Shown here piece after piece: positions 17,758-35,646 of a stretch of 64,000 nt of DNA. The stretch spans positions 62,001 through 126,000 of the forward strand of contig JAHAYJ010000042.1 in assembly GCA_018384375.1 (NCBI GenBank), given 5' to 3'. The stretch is from Lachnospiraceae bacterium. GTDB taxonomy: Bacteria > Bacillota > Clostridia > Lachnospirales > Lachnospiraceae. The notes under the pieces are model-generated. The model was not told the DNA's origin. It made no database searches and saw only the letters and a program-made list of their open reading frames with translations. Positions within the stretch are counted from its first letter, which is position 1, and each line of letters opens with the position of its first letter. The position numbers and the translations under genes were made by a program.

Positions 17758-17827
17758 TAAATCATAATTTCTTTATACCATATTTGGTGTTAAAATCATG
17801 TGAGTGGGGACGAATGGAGGAAATAGA

Positions 17828-20005
17828 ATGAGCAATGAACAGGAAAATGCTGTGATTTACAGCGAGATTTACCAGCCAACACGTAAGGTAATGGTGATTA
17901 AAAAGGACGGCAGTCTGGAAGCTTTTAATGTGCAGAAGGTCATTGATGCTGTCGGCAAAAGTGCTTACAGGGCGCTGACCAAATTTACACCGGAAGAAAA
18001 AAGGCACATTTGCCAATATGTGGTGGATAAGGTAAATGAGCTTGATCAGGATCAGATCCCGATTCCCATTATGCATAATATTGTAGAAAGTGCACTTGAG
18101 GATGTGAAACCGATCGTAGCGAAAAGCTACCGTGATTATCGTAATTATAAGCAGGATTTTGTTCGAATGATGGATGATGTCTATAAAAAGAGTCAGTCCA
18201 TTATGTACGTCGGTGACAAGGAAAATGCCAATACTGACAGTGCTCTTGTTTCTACAAAAAGAAGTCTGATCTTTAATCAGTTTAATAAAGAGCTTTATCA
18301 GAAGTTTTTTATGACTACGGAGGAAATTCAGGCATGTCGCGACGGCTATATCTATGTACATGATATGTCTGCAAGGCGAGACACTATGAACTGTTGCCTT
18401 TTTGATGTGGCAAGTGTTCTGACCGGTGGCTTTGAAATGGGAAATATCTGGTACAACGAGCCTAAAACGCTGGATGTTGCTTTTGATGTCATCGGTGATA
18501 TTGTTTTAAGCGCAGCAAGTCAGCAATATGGTGGATTTACAGTACCGGAGGTCGATAAGATTCTTGAGCCCTATGCTGAAAAGACTTTTCAGAAGAGTCT
18601 CGATAAATATGCCAGACTTGGTATTGATAAAGAAACTGCACAGGCAGAAGCCTTTGCAGATGTAAAGCGTGAATTTGAACAGGGATTTCAGGGATGGGAA
18701 TATAAATTTAATACGGTTGCGTCCAGCCGCGGTGATTATCCCTTCATTACCGTTACAGCAGGAATTGGAACAGGAAGATTTGCCAAGCTTGCAACCATCT
18801 CTCTCTTAAACGTCAGAAGAAAAGGGCAGGGAAAGAAGGACTGTAAAAAGCCTGTTCTTTTCCCTAAAATTGTGTTCCTTTATGACGAAAATCTGCATGG
18901 CCCCGGAAAAGAGCTGGAAGACGTTTTTGAGGCCGGCGTTCAGTGCTCTGCCAAGACCATGTACCCTGACTGGCTTTCCCTAACAGGAAAGGGCTATATT
19001 GCCAGTATGTATAAGCAGTACGGAAAAGTGATTTCCCCGATGGGCTGTCGTGCATTTCTTTCTCCCTGGTATGAAAGAGGCGGTATGCACCCTGCGGATG
19101 ATGATGATGTGCCTGTTTTTGTGGGAAGATTTAATATCGGTGCAGTATCACTGCATCTTCCTATGATTCTTGCCAAGGCAAGACAGGAAAACAAAGATTT
19201 TTATGAGGTTCTTGATTACTATTTAAATTTGATCCGTCAGTTACATATCAGAACTTATGCTTATCTTGGTGAAATGCGTGCTTCTACCAATCCCCTTGCT
19301 TACTGTGAGGGCGGATTCCTCGGAGGACACTTAAAGCTTACCGATAAGATCAAGCCAATCCTGAAAACTGCAACGGCAAGCTTTGGGATCACAGCATTCA
19401 ATGAGCTTCAGGAACTTTATAACGGCAAGTCTCTGGTGGAAGACGGACAGTTCGCATTGGAGGTTTTGGAGCATATCAATCAGAAGATCAATGAATTTAA
19501 GGAAGAGGACGGAAATCTGTATGCAATCTACGGAACACCTGCTGAAAGTCTCTGTGGCTTACAGGTAAAACAGTTCCGTGCAAAATATGGTATTATTGAA
19601 GGGGTTTCCGACCGCGAATATGTATCAAACAGCTTCCACTGTCATGTTACGGAGGATATTACACCGATCCAGAAGCAGGATCTGGAGTACCGCTTCTGGG
19701 AGCTTAGTAACGGTGGAAAAATTCAATATGTAAAATATCCGATAGATTATAATATAGAAGCAATCAAAACTCTGATCAGAAGGGCAATGGACATGGGCTT
19801 TTATGAGGGAGTCAATCTTTCTCTTGCATACTGTGATGACTGTGGTCATCAGGAGCTTGAAATGGATGTATGCCCTGTATGCGGAAGTAAAAATCTGACA
19901 AAGATCGAGCGTATGAACGGATATCTTTCTTATTCACGCGTCCATGGGGATACCAGACTCAATGAAGCAAAAATGGCAGAAATTGCAGAAAGGAAGAGCA
20001 TGTAG
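17828..20005 (+). CDS. nrdD: Anaerobic ribonucleoside-triphosphate reductase (class III)
   Basis: Glycyl-radical enzyme making dNTPs from NTPs without oxygen, 725 residues from ATG 17828 (SD GGAGGA; an upstream GTG at 17804 lacks one). An ATP-cone occupies about residues 20-110 (VIKKDGSLEAFNVQKVIDAV). The catalytic barrel is recognisable from RRDTMNCCLFDV through AYLGEMRASTNPLAYCEGG. The C-terminal zinc ribbon is CDDC...CPVC. The radical Gly is predicted at residue 698 in RMNGYL, where enterobacterial enzymes have CGYLG. It is first in an operon with its activase and dut. Regulation by dATP through NrdR is suggested by the boxes upstream. Confidence 0.96.
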   Translation: MSNEQENAVIYSEIYQPTRKVMVIKKDGSLEAFNVQKVIDAVGKSAYRALTKFTPEEKRHICQYVVDKVNELDQDQIPIPIMHNIVESALEDVKPIVAKSYRDYRNYKQDFVRMMDDVYKKSQSIMYVGDKENANTDSALVSTKRSLIFNQFNKELYQKFFMTTEEIQACRDGYIYVHDMSARRDTMNCCLFDVASVLTGGFEMGNIWYNEPKTLDVAFDVIGDIVLSAASQQYGGFTVPEVDKILEPYAEKTFQKSLDKYARLGIDKETAQAEAFADVKREFEQGFQGWEYKFNTVASSRGDYPFITVTAGIGTGRFAKLATISLLNVRRKGQGKKDCKKPVLFPKIVFLYDENLHGPGKELEDVFEAGVQCSAKTMYPDWLSLTGKGYIASMYKQYGKVISPMGCRAFLSPWYERGGMHPADDDDVPVFVGRFNIGAVSLHLPMILAKARQENKDFYEVLDYYLNLIRQLHIRTYAYLGEMRASTNPLAYCEGGFLGGHLKLTDKIKPILKTATASFGITAFNELQELYNGKSLVEDGQFALEVLEHINQKINEFKEEDGNLYAIYGTPAESLCGLQVKQFRAKYGIIEGVSDREYVSNSFHCHVTEDITPIQKQDLEYRFWELSNGGKIQYVKYPIDYNIEAIKTLIRRAMDMGFYEGVNLSLAYCDDCGHQELEMDVCPVCGSKNLTKIERMNGYLSYSRVHGDTRLNEAKMAEIAERKSM

Positions 20006-20008
20006 GCA

Positions 20009-20518
20009 ATGAGATATCACAATATAACCAAGGATGATATGTTAAACGGTGACGGCCTTCGCGTTGTGTTATGGGTAGCCGGCTGCTCTCATTGCTGCAA
20101 AGAATGTCAGAATCCAATTACCTGGGATCCTGCCGGAGGTCTTCCTTTTGATGAAGCTGCAAAACAGGAAATTTTTGAACAGCTTGATAAATCCTATATT
20201 TCGGGCATTACCTTTTCCGGAGGAGATCCTCTCCATGCAGCAAATCGCCTGGATGTCAGAAACCTGATGGCAGAAATTAAGCAGAAATACCCGGATAAAA
20301 CCATATGGCTCTATACCGGAGATGTATGGGAAAACATCATGCACTATGCAATCATGCAATATGTTGATGTACTTGTAGATGGAGAATTTCAGATTGATAA
20401 AAAGGACAACAAACTTTTATGGAAGGGAAGCAGTAATCAGCGCGTTATTGATGTACAGAAATCCTTAAAACAGACAGATCCTTCCGTACCGATTCTTCAT
20501 TGTGGTGATTATGCATAA
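20009..20518 (+). CDS. nrdG: Anaerobic RNR-activating protein (radical SAM)
   Basis: Radical SAM activase that generates the glycyl radical on NrdD using SAM and a [4Fe-4S] cluster. The protein has 169 residues, typical for NrdG. The cluster ligands are Cys26, Cys30 and Cys33 in [13 protein letters not shown] (CX3CX2C, with an extra Cys29 inside). The GGDP motif is FSGGDPLH. The gene starts three bases after the nrdD stop, as expected for an enzyme and activase produced together. SD is within the nrdD end (GAAAGGAAGAG). Confidence 0.96.
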
Positions 20519-20535: not shown

Positions 20536-20970
20536 ATGGAAACAATAAAAATCAAATATTTTACCGATAAGATTGACAAATTGACCTATATTGACGGAAA
20601 GTCAGATTGGATCGATTTAAGAGCTGCAGAGGATGTTGATTTAAAGAAGGGAGATTTCAAATTGATTCCACTTGGTGTTGCCATGGAACTGCCAAAGGGC
20701 TATGAAGCCCACATTGTTCCCAGAAGCTCCACCTTTAAGAACTTTGGCATTATTCAGGCAAATCATCATGGAATTGTTGATTGCTCTTATTGCGGTGACA
20801 ATGACCAGTGGTTTATGCCTGTCTATGCAATGAGAGATACCCACATTTCCTGCAATGACAGAATCTGTCAATTCAGAATTGTTGAAAATCAACCTAAAAT
20901 CGTGTTTGATGAAGTTGAAACCTTGGAAGGTAAGGATCGGGGTGGCTTCGGAAGCACCGGTAAGCAGTAA
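20536..20970 (+). CDS. dut: dUTP diphosphatase
   Basis: Hydrolyses dUTP to dUMP, limiting uracil in DNA and feeding dTMP synthesis. At 144 residues it has normal trimeric dUTPase length. Motif 1 is weak (WIDLRAAE). Motif 2 is PRSS (62-65), motif 3 is [10 protein letters not shown] (79-88), motif 4 is RICQFRI (109-115), and motif 5 is RGGFGSTG (135-142). The Tyr in motif 3 favours a dUTPase over a dCTP deaminase. Grouping with nrdDG ties dUTP removal to anaerobic dNTP synthesis. Confidence 0.92.
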
Positions 20971-20979
20971 AGAAAACTT

Positions 20980-21009
20980 GTATAAAAAAGCTCCTTTTGC
21001 AACATAATG
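20980..21009 (+). promoter_or_regulatory. Candidate sigma-G (or sigma-F) promoter of the spoVAF-like gene
   Basis: GTATA (20980-20984), an 18-base spacer and CATAATG (21003-21009) match the forespore consensus GHATR, N18, CATNHTA at every defined position but the last. A transcription start near 21015-21018 is predicted. SpoVAF-type genes are forespore-expressed in Bacillus, which agrees. Confidence 0.6.
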
Positions 21010-21041
21010 CTATTAAATGCATTGTGTGCGGAAGGAGCTTT
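20987..21041 (+). promoter_or_regulatory. Long inverted repeat hiding the SD of the spoVAF-like gene
   Basis: AAAGCTCCTT (20987-20996) pairs perfectly with AAGGAGCTTT (21032-21041), whose AAGGAG is the SD. An inner stem pairs GCAACATAATGC (20999-21010) with GCATTGTGTGC (21019-21029) almost completely, leaving an 8-base loop. It may also attenuate dut transcription, although the T tract is weak. The predicted forespore start site lies in the loop, so only read-through RNA would carry both arms. Confidence 0.7.
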
Positions 21042-21045
21042 CTTT

Positions 21046-22464
21046 ATGAATTCAAATAAAATGAGTACATCTCTTTCAGAAAATATGAAGTACTTAGGTA
21101 ATAAACTCTCAGTCGATACCAATTTTGATATTGTTTACCGGGTGATTAAGGTAGGTGGAAGAAATGCCTGTATCTATTTTATAGATGGTTTCTGTAAGGA
21201 TGAGTTGATGCAGAAAATGCTTCAGTACTTTATGGACATCAAAGAGGAGGAAATGCCAAAGGACGCGCATGAAATGTCAAAAACCAGTATGCCATACGTG
21301 GAAGTAGACTTACAGGATGAATGGGAAAAGATCACTTATTTTATTATGTCAGGTGTCTTCGCTTTATTTATCGACGGATATGACAAATGTATTTTGATCG
21401 ATTCCAGAACCTATCCGGCACGAAATGTTTCCGAGCCGGAGAAGGATAAGGTTCTCAGAGGTTCTAAGGATGGTTTTGTAGAAACGATCGTTTTTAATAC
21501 GGCCCTGATCAGGCGCCGTATCCGCAGCACAGAGCTTCGAATGGAAATGCTTCATGCCGGGAACAGTTCAAAGACAGATATTGTGCTATGTTATATGGAA
21601 AGCCGTGTAGATCATGCCTTTCTGACACAGATCAAAGAGCGGATCAAGCAAATCGAAGTGGATGCTCTTACCATGAATCAGGAAAGCCTGGCAGAATGCC
21701 TTTACAAAAAGCGCTGGTACAATCCGTTCCCTAAATTCAAATTTACAGAGCGTCCTGATACGGCTGCCGCCCAGATTCTGGAAGGGGATATTGTCATTCT
21801 GGTAGACAATTCCCCCTCGGCAATGATCACGCCGACCTCCATCTTTGACGTTGTGGAAGAAGCAGATGACTATTATTTCCCGCCGATTACAGGAACCTAT
21901 CTGCGCCTTTCACGATTTATCATAGCAATATTAACCTATTTTGTTACCCCAACCTTTCTCTTGCTGATGCAGCAGCCGGAATGGATTCCGGCAGGATTTG
22001 AATTCATTCAAGTCAAGGACACCCAGAATGTTCCGCTTATCTGGCAGTTCCTGATTCTTGAGCTTGCCCTTGATGGTTTGCGTCTTGCGGCGGTGAATAC
22101 CCCTAATATGCTCAGTACTCCTTTAAGTGTCATGGCCGCATTAGTGCTTGGGGAATTCTCTGTCAACAGTGGGTGGTTTAATTCCGAGGTCATGCTTTAT
22201 ATGGCATTTGTGGCAATTGCCAACTACACACAGGCAAGCTATGAATTGAGCTATGCCATTAAATTTATGCGAATTATCAATCTGATCCTGACGGCAATGT
22301 TCGGCATTTGGGGCTATATTGCAGGAGTTGCCTTGCTGATCCTGGCAATTGTAACAAACAAGACAGTATCCGGAAAGAGCTATATTTATCCGCTGTTTCC
22401 CCTGAATCTGAAGCAATTGTCCAAAAGATTTCTGCGCTACAGACTGCCGGGAGCGAGAGAGTAG
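21046..22464 (+). CDS. spoVAF: GerA-family spore protein, SpoVAF-like
   Basis: Inner-spore-membrane protein of the GerAA/SpoVAF family, 472 residues from ATG 21046 (AAGGAG 9 bases upstream; an earlier in-frame ATG at 21007 lies in the hairpin). A soluble N-terminal half carries YRVIKVGGRNACIYFIDG, VLRGSKDGFVETIVFNTALI and VDALTMNQESLAECL. Next come EGDIVILVDNSPSAMI and about five membrane helices. These blocks resemble SpoVAF more than nutrient-receptor A subunits, and no B or C subunit genes are adjacent. SpoVAF assists germinant response and DPA release in Bacillus. Here it is separated from any spoVA operon. Confidence 0.8.
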   Translation: MNSNKMSTSLSENMKYLGNKLSVDTNFDIVYRVIKVGGRNACIYFIDGFCKDELMQKMLQYFMDIKEEEMPKDAHEMSKTSMPYVEVDLQDEWEKITYFIMSGVFALFIDGYDKCILIDSRTYPARNVSEPEKDKVLRGSKDGFVETIVFNTALIRRRIRSTELRMEMLHAGNSSKTDIVLCYMESRVDHAFLTQIKERIKQIEVDALTMNQESLAECLYKKRWYNPFPKFKFTERPDTAAAQILEGDIVILVDNSPSAMITPTSIFDVVEEADDYYFPPITGTYLRLSRFIIAILTYFVTPTFLLLMQQPEWIPAGFEFIQVKDTQNVPLIWQFLILELALDGLRLAAVNTPNMLSTPLSVMAALVLGEFSVNSGWFNSEVMLYMAFVAIANYTQASYELSYAIKFMRIINLILTAMFGIWGYIAGVALLILAIVTNKTVSGKSYIYPLFPLNLKQLSKRFLRYRLPGARE

Positions 22465-35243: not shown

Positions 35244-35271
35244 AACTCTTTTTTCATTTCTGCATATGATA
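35244..35271 (+). promoter_or_regulatory. Candidate sigma-K promoter of the Cys-rich gene
   Basis: AAC (35244-35246), a 16-base spacer and CATATGATA (35263-35271) match the late mother-cell pattern AC, N16-17, CATANNNTA exactly. This is the same spacing as the cotJ promoter on the other strand. A start site near 35277-35280 would leave a very short leader. Confidence 0.55.
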
Positions 35272-35290
35272 TAGCAGAATAAAAAGGAGT
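35245..35290 (+). promoter_or_regulatory. SD-pairing inverted repeat before the Cys-rich gene
   Basis: ACTCTTTTTT (35245-35254) pairs with AAAAAGGAGT (35281-35290), which is the SD, through nine Watson-Crick pairs and one G-U. An inner stem TTCTGC/GCAGAA (35258-35263 with 35274-35279) encloses most of the candidate sigma-K -10. Only RNA entering from the upstream gene could form it. Confidence 0.5.
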
Positions 35291-35298
35291 GACATAAT

Positions 35299-35646
35299 AT
35301 GAATTGTCTGATTTTAGTGTTATTGCTGCTTTGTTGCGGAAGTAACGGAATGTGGCAGAATGATTGTGACGGCGGATGCGCAGGAAGCGGAAGAGAATGT
35401 GAACGCGACAGAGACTGTGGCTGTTCGAGAAATGGAAGAGAACGTGACAGCAGGGATTGCGGCTGTCAGAGTAGAGAGCGTAATCAGGATTGTGACAGGA
35501 ACAGAGAAAGAGATTGTGACTGCCAGGACCGTGGACGAGAGCGCGAAAGTAGCTGCGGATGCAGAAATGAAGGACGTTTAGAGCCAAGACCATTTCTTTC
35601 TTTTTCAGGATCGACCTGCGGCTGTGAGGATTCCCAGAATAACTAA
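35299..35646 (+). CDS. Cys/Arg/Asp-rich small protein, probable spore-coat component
   Basis: A 115-residue protein with 17 cysteines. A hydrophobic N-terminal stretch (residues 4-11, LILVLLLL, then CCG) is followed by a low-complexity region of imperfect 12-16-residue repeats built around DCGC, DCDC or SCGC with RERD/RNRER spacers. The C-terminal segment after RLEPRPFLSF is different and ends CGCEDSQNN. I recognise no named family. The hydrophobic segment is short for a signal peptide but could anchor it. The strong SD AAAAAGGAG and the candidate sigma-K promoter suggest late mother-cell expression, and Cys-rich composition suits cross-linking or metal binding in the coat. Confidence 0.68.
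   Translation: MNCLILVLLLLCCGSNGMWQNDCDGGCAGSGRECERDRDCGCSRNGRERDSRDCGCQSRERNQDCDRNRERDCDCQDRGRERESSCGCRNEGRLEPRPFLSFSGSTCGCEDSQNN

Follow-up and report, generated by a model that had tools for sequence, protein, structure and literature searches.

The ribosome binding site and the start codon of a GerA-family spore germination gene lie in a long predicted RNA hairpin, and the DNA that encodes the 5' arm of this hairpin also holds a sigma-G-type promoter (Table 1). The gene is located in the window, which is the whole stretch of 64,000 nucleotides of DNA that was analysed. We consider it likely that this element is a combined terminator and Shine-Dalgarno (SD) lock against read-through and that it is escaped by forespore RNA that starts in the loop. 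The growth-phase RNA coming from the upstream gene would hold both arms so that the hairpin folds, polymerase would then probably terminate at the T-run just ahead of the start codon, and in any RNA that escapes termination the SD and the start codon would be paired and translation would be blocked. In the forespore, sigma-G polymerase would use the -35 and -10 elements in the 5' arm and initiate in the loop. RNA that starts in the loop is without the 5' arm and therefore neither the terminator nor the lock would form and the SD would be exposed.

The hairpin and the promoter in the window

The germination gene, called spoVAF-like in the first-pass annotation, is the sole GerA match found in the genome, and when it was compared to NCBIfam the best model was GerXA with a score far under the cut-off. 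The first-pass annotation had placed nrdD, nrdG, and dut upstream of it, and this gene order was confirmed by the models listed in Table 1, in the case of dut through Pfam only. The distance from the end of dut to the ATG of the germination gene is 75 nt.

Table 1. Features at the germination gene locus, with positions counted from the first base of the window
Feature	Position	Strand	Remarks
nrdD, anaerobic RNR	17804..20005	+	TIGR02487 above cut-off; true start possibly ATG 17828
nrdG, anaerobic RNR activating protein	20009..20518	+	TIGR02491 above cut-off
dut (dUTPase)	20536..20970	+	PF00692; under NCBIfam cut-off; adjoins germination gene
-35-like GTATA, sigma-G-type	20980..20984	+	base of 5' arm
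Hairpin	20981..21048	+	29 pairs, 8-base loop; SD and start codon masked in read-through RNA (predicted fold)
Anti-SD segment CTCCTT	20991..20996	+	between -35 and -10; pairs with AAGGAG
-10-like CATAATG	21003..21009	+	inner 5' arm; CATACTA in many relatives
8-base loop	21011..21018	+	predicted transcription start about 21015-21016, from -10 spacing
Shine-Dalgarno AAGGAG	21032..21037	+	3' arm; paired with CTCCTT 20991-20996
T-rich spacer CTTTCTTT	21038..21045	+	between SD and start; probable terminator U-tract
GerA-family spore germination protein, 472 aa	21046..22464	+	PF03323, E 7.7e-146

When the junction of dut and the germination gene (20960-21070) was folded, the free energy was -39.4 kcal/mol compared to a mean of -17.3 kcal/mol in 200 shuffled sequences, none of which was as stable (z -7.2), and the structure obtained was the long hairpin burying AAGGAG that the first-pass annotation had drawn. 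The minimum free energy structure has 21 outer pairs and 8 inner pairs with a single unpaired base on each side, and its outer helix reaches the start codon at 21046-21048. SD-masking hairpins were also ranked over 61 start candidates in the window, these being ORFs of at least 50 aa on both strands that have an SD of the scanned forms, and the gerA hairpin came first with -34.0 kcal/mol followed by a runner-up with -23.9 kcal/mol. Curated Rfam families gave no match in the window at the gathering score.

The cost of opening, which is the free energy required to free the SD, was calculated for a long RNA with 150 nt of upstream sequence and for a short RNA that begins a few bases past the -10. 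In the window the opening cost was 16.9 kcal/mol in the read-through RNA compared to 1.4-5.7 kcal/mol in the loop-started RNA, the latter depending on the length of coding sequence included. With 40 nt of coding sequence the opening cost of the short RNA was 5.7 kcal/mol and the probability that the SD is unpaired was 0.006, a weak pairing between the SD and CUCUUUC early in the coding sequence being predicted for the short RNA.

The promoter in the 5' arm has the layout GTATA-N18-CATAATG. The consensus of sigma-G promoters is GHATR-N17/18-CATWMTA-like, and the -10 in the window departs from it at the final base. Matches to GTATA-N18-CATAATG with at most one mismatch were found 7 times in the window compared to 9.9 expected. 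Because such matches are no commoner than expected, the match alone is weak statistically, and the case for the promoter rests instead on its place in the arm and on its conservation.

Conservation in relatives and the orientation of the upstream gene

A scan of species genomes gave 588 loci, the best 80 of which are 73-94% identical and are mostly labelled Lachnospiraceae or its genera, some being labelled Bacillota or bacterium only and one Muribaculaceae. In these 80 and the window, a strict promoter of the form GHATA-N17/18-CATA[AC]T[AG] within 110 nt of the start was present at 46 of 71 starts labelled gerA and at 5 of 246 starts of other genes. The latter five are gerA starts that were left unlabelled by the script, which corrects the counts to 51 of 76 and 0 of 241, respectively. 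The best-scoring motif was strict in 55 of the 81 rows formed by the window and the best 80 of 588, and in 75 of them it had the relaxed GHATA and -10-like form. Both the layout and this conservation fit the earlier proposal that the 5' arm contains a sigma-G-type promoter whose start falls in the loop, the start being predicted from the -10 spacing.

The order of elements that recurs among the relatives is -35, anti-SD, -10, loop, SD, T-run, and start. A single expression for this order (-35-like, 16-20 nt, -10-like, 8-60 nt, GGAG) matched 57 of the same 81 rows, and many of the remaining 24 were seen by eye to retain the arms and the SD, the -10 being weaker or the loop longer. In the best 80 of 588 and the window, the SD was masked by a hairpin of -18 kcal/mol or lower at 61 of 71 gerA starts compared to 26 of 246 other starts, and at least 6 of these 26 are gerA or antisense to the gerA hairpin. 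When opening costs were examined in the 80 distinct close rows (the window and 79 of the best 80 of 588), the medians were 12.85 kcal/mol in the long RNA and 1.75 kcal/mol in the short RNA. A lock was scored when the opening cost in the long RNA was at least 8.5 kcal/mol and exceeded that in the short RNA by at least 5 kcal/mol, and 70 of the 80 rows had a lock by this measure.

Covariation was examined in 56 of the 57 motif-bearing rows, of which 53 were distinct, at 16 pairs. The 5' arms were aligned from the -10 and the 3' arms from the SD, without any fitting of structure. In the 53 distinct rows changes on both sides of a pair occurred in 60 cells compared to a mean of 20.8 (maximum 34) after shuffling and 7-28 with slid partners, and standard pairs made up 85.6% compared to a mean of 79.8% (maximum 81.7%) and 45-64%, respectively; these counts are inflated by kinship, which the slid-partner control retains. 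These rows had 27 extra pair types, which is no excess over shuffled rows with 24.5 on average and at most 29. The four innermost pairs tested were formed in just 32-37 of the 53 rows. Since the element order recurs and the inner arms covary in relatives, the arrangement of hairpin and promoter is not due to chance. The masking of the SD in read-through RNA that had been put forward from the window sequence is thus upheld by the predicted opening energies, by the inner-arm covariation, and by the close rows.

Two minor features of this set may be mentioned. At L053, L010, and L025 the loop is apparently larger by at least about 40 bases and the arm sequences are still recognisable. L004 and L005 are two contigs of one MAG, each carrying the locus with identical sequence just upstream, and they are either a duplicate or a strain mixture.

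The upstream gene varies from locus to locus and may be dut, a second dUTPase-family type (PF00692), an MCP gene, or others. In the first set (the best 80 of 588 and the window) the lock was retained in 64 of 66 rows where the upstream gene is co-directional and in 2 of 7 where it is divergent. This set was enlarged with the genus of the window, in which the gene is present in 35 of 37 genomes and 20 stretches were taken from the listed gene places, and with a second genus, in which it is present in 73 of 77 genomes and 60 stretches were taken. Of the resulting 160 rows 123 were distinct, and the orientation was known for 116. In the enlarged set the lock was retained in 103 of 106 co-directional loci and in 2 of 10 divergent loci (Fisher 1.1e-8, with kinship ignored), and the median opening costs were 14.1 and 5.95 kcal/mol, respectively. 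The contrast was stable for thresholds of 7-10 kcal/mol, and at 6 kcal/mol the lock was retained in 104 of 106 co-directional loci compared to 5 of 10 divergent loci. For L037, L244, L245, and L295 the divergent orientation was assigned by hand, and that of L054 was set as unknown because its minus-strand ORF is without a Pfam match.

On the gene tree the upstream orientation switched five independent times. With most ways of pairing the loci about four of the switches crossed the lock threshold, one made no difference, and none went in the reverse direction (sign p 0.125). In all five switches the divergent rows had a lower opening cost than the average of the five co-directional rows closest to them, a comparison that cannot reach 0.05, and the divergent values and the co-directional means were 1.8-4.0 and 14.8, 5.9-7.9 and 12.0, 9.4-11.8 and 14.1, 2.1 and 14.4, and 6.0 and 15.4 kcal/mol. 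At the divergent loci the lock is weakened rather than always erased. The hairpin over the SD still folds in L060 and L295, L059 and L063 still have a lock by the above measure, and a DegV-linked divergent group made up of L013, L016, and L234 is the closest to loss of the lock. Good promoter elements persist in the divergent loci L013, L016, L059, L063, L234, and L295, and as the promoter persists where the hairpin is weak the two are separable. The loci provide a natural series in which gene order appears to tune a regulatory RNA, the promoter being retained in several divergent loci.

The co-directional loci that did not reach the lock thresholds are L029, L079, and L298. L298 was scored as lost because an insert in the loop moves the 5' arm outside the 150 nt that were folded, and when it is folded whole the arms pair. 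This insert is about 170 bp long with inverted ends, it has an intact arm on either side, and it looks like a small mobile element.

That the lock is retained behind various co-directional genes and is weaker behind divergent ones argues that the hairpin stops incoming transcription, irrespective of which gene is the neighbour. The purpose suggested in the first-pass annotation, namely that read-through during growth is barred from making a spore protein, is supported by comparison, in the conservation of the promoter and the orientation contrast. The further suggestion that the element may serve as an attenuator for dut is not supported, because it is also found behind the second dUTPase type, the MCP gene, and others when these are co-directional. 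As it is not tied to dut, it is better described as a general block to read-through, and probably the terminator of the upstream genes, than as a dut attenuator.

Probable termination, masking of the SD, and other explanations

The T-run was counted in 174 of 181 loci, those with a usable start and a distinct upstream sequence. At least four of the first five spacer bases were T in 76 of 84 lock-bearing loci compared to 8 of 90 lock-less loci. In the 29 cells with an unpairable T or C as the 5' partner the 3' base remained T in 28, and an A opposite a non-T was never kept (0 of 6 cells). Retention of T where it cannot pair suggests that the U-tract is selected for itself and that the element may be a terminator too. 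The hairpin base CTCC/GGAG and the T-run are present and conserved and the site is missed by consensus terminator scans. Among co-directional loci a separate terminator was found in 6 of the 44 that are lock-less and in none of the 77 that bear the lock, counts that carry little weight because the scan misses the SD hairpin itself as well as terminators that are visible by eye (L196 and L204).

These data bear on an explanation in which the hairpin is an SD lock only, so that translation of read-through RNA is blocked with no termination at the site and the T's serve the stem. We regard this as unlikely, since on this explanation the T should not have stayed unchanged opposite unpairable partners and the T-run should not be absent from most of the lock-less loci. 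The large opening energy and the failure of the consensus scans to recognise the site would agree with it, as would the locks of T4 gene e (PMC3014915) and B. subtilis sigG (PMC5942855), which are presented without a terminator role in the portions of these papers that we draw on.

The converse explanation, that the hairpin is a terminator only which ends the upstream operon and that the SD is in the 3' arm owing to the short intergenic region, is in our judgement quite improbable. It would account for the conservation of the T-run independently of pairing, for the weaker lock behind divergent genes, and for the scan having found no separate terminator in the lock-bearing co-directional loci. 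However, a terminator has no need for its 5' arm to be placed between a -35 and a -10 or for an SD to form its 3' arm, this placement of arm, promoter, and SD recurs with differing upstream genes, and the stems are long and imperfect and not like those of compact terminators. Finally, that the palindrome is an operator bound by a protein over the sigma-G promoter and the RNA fold is incidental is very hard to credit, because although the inverted repeat spans the promoter and is centred near the predicted start, the inner arms vary with compensation and no single word is kept, the conserved T-run and the link to upstream orientation suit RNA instead, and a good promoter persists at loci whose palindrome is weak or has been lost (L013, L016, L234, and L295).

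Known systems and related loci

In the transposase genes of IS10, IS50, and IS200 the ribosome site is covered by a fold in transcripts that enter from outside and not in RNA from the element's own promoter, IS200 adding termination; the likeness to the present case is in the protection from read-through and the difference is that these are mobile elements. In T4 gene e the long early transcripts sequester the SD, and late promoters just ahead of the gene give a shorter RNA without the 5' strand; the structure is predicted in related phages as well and a 100-fold reduction is cited (PMC3014915). The likeness is an SD lock in a long RNA that is escaped by RNA from a start closer to the gene, and the difference is that the promoter is a phage late promoter and no sporulation sigma factor is involved. 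For sigG (spoIIIG) of B. subtilis it has been proposed that a hairpin of 20 or more bp bars translation of read-through RNA and that transcripts starting at the sigG promoter are unable to form it (PMC5942855). As in the present case, a forespore gene lies downstream of a co-directional operon with a hairpin in the read-through RNA, the gene and the promoter being different ones. In both cases the absence of a described terminator role, as far as the portions drawn on extend, is a further difference.

From T4 gene e and B. subtilis sigG it is clear that the principle of a read-through lock is already known. The locus in the window would belong to this kind, in that sequence and folding gave both an SD that is paired in the long RNA and a promoter of a stage-specific type within the DNA of the 5' strand. 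What seems to be new is the likely terminator, the placing of a sigma-G promoter within the arm, and the series of gene orders. In the titles and abstract openings of open-licence PMC articles no prior account of a terminator, an SD, and a sporulation promoter fused in this manner was recognised.

A broader possibility, which we put forward tentatively and with some doubt, is that a single palindrome of 68 nt acts as a terminator, as a ribosome lock, and as a forespore promoter, that this construction recurs at the unrelated forespore genes sigG and gerA, and that it is a general means by which sporulating bacteria insulate developmental genes from their neighbours. If this were true, the choice of start site would set which cell type makes the germination protein, and the palindrome would be maintained downstream of a growth gene that reads into it and would erode once gene order removes the read-through. 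The lock suggests a way for the gene of a spore membrane protein to lie downstream of a growth operon without harm, and it calls for caution in that forespore genes present in growth transcripts may be silent. With the gene-order series, the older proposal on B. subtilis sigG can also be tested by comparison.

When the genome was searched for exact CTCCTT...AAGGAG, 10 sites were found compared to 16 for a backwards control and there was no enrichment. CTCCTT...CATANT...AAGGAG gave 2 sites genome-wide, the hairpin in the window and one that is apparently due to chance, and the control also gave 2. The germination gene hairpin had been described as the strongest case of an arrangement repeated in the window. 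It is indeed the strongest of the 61 candidates, but the repetition was not confirmed, as the sole other candidate examined was without an energetic lock: the opening cost at the hairpin at 35244-35291 was 4.3-8.2 kcal/mol in the long RNA compared to 5.2-6.2 kcal/mol in the supposed short RNA. In this region (35244-35646) the hairpin covers the SD before a Cys-rich ORF at 35299 of about 115 aa that is without a Pfam match, and its 5' arm contains a sigma-K-like AC-N16-CATATGATA.

Among more distant members of the family, for which 100 stretches were taken from family matches, a lock was found by the same measure in 14 of 94 loci. Of 30 sigG loci 29 were measured, L118 not being found, and there was no control set. 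The opening cost in the long RNA ranged from 0.7 to 11.0 kcal/mol over the 29 loci; 4 of them had a lock by the same measure, and in 13 the opening cost was 5 kcal/mol or more and differed from that of the short RNA by 3 kcal/mol or more. The sigG of the window genome itself had 1.0 kcal/mol and was without a lock. As the -35 and -10 of sigG were taken from the best-scoring motif, and such a motif always exists, the sigG result is supportive only. In sigG loci of other families, L096, L094, and L093, the opening cost in the long RNA was 11.0, 9.4, and 6.3 kcal/mol, respectively, and the order in these three loci is GTATA, a C-rich anti-SD-like spacer, a sigma-F-like -10, and GGAGG, as at gerA.
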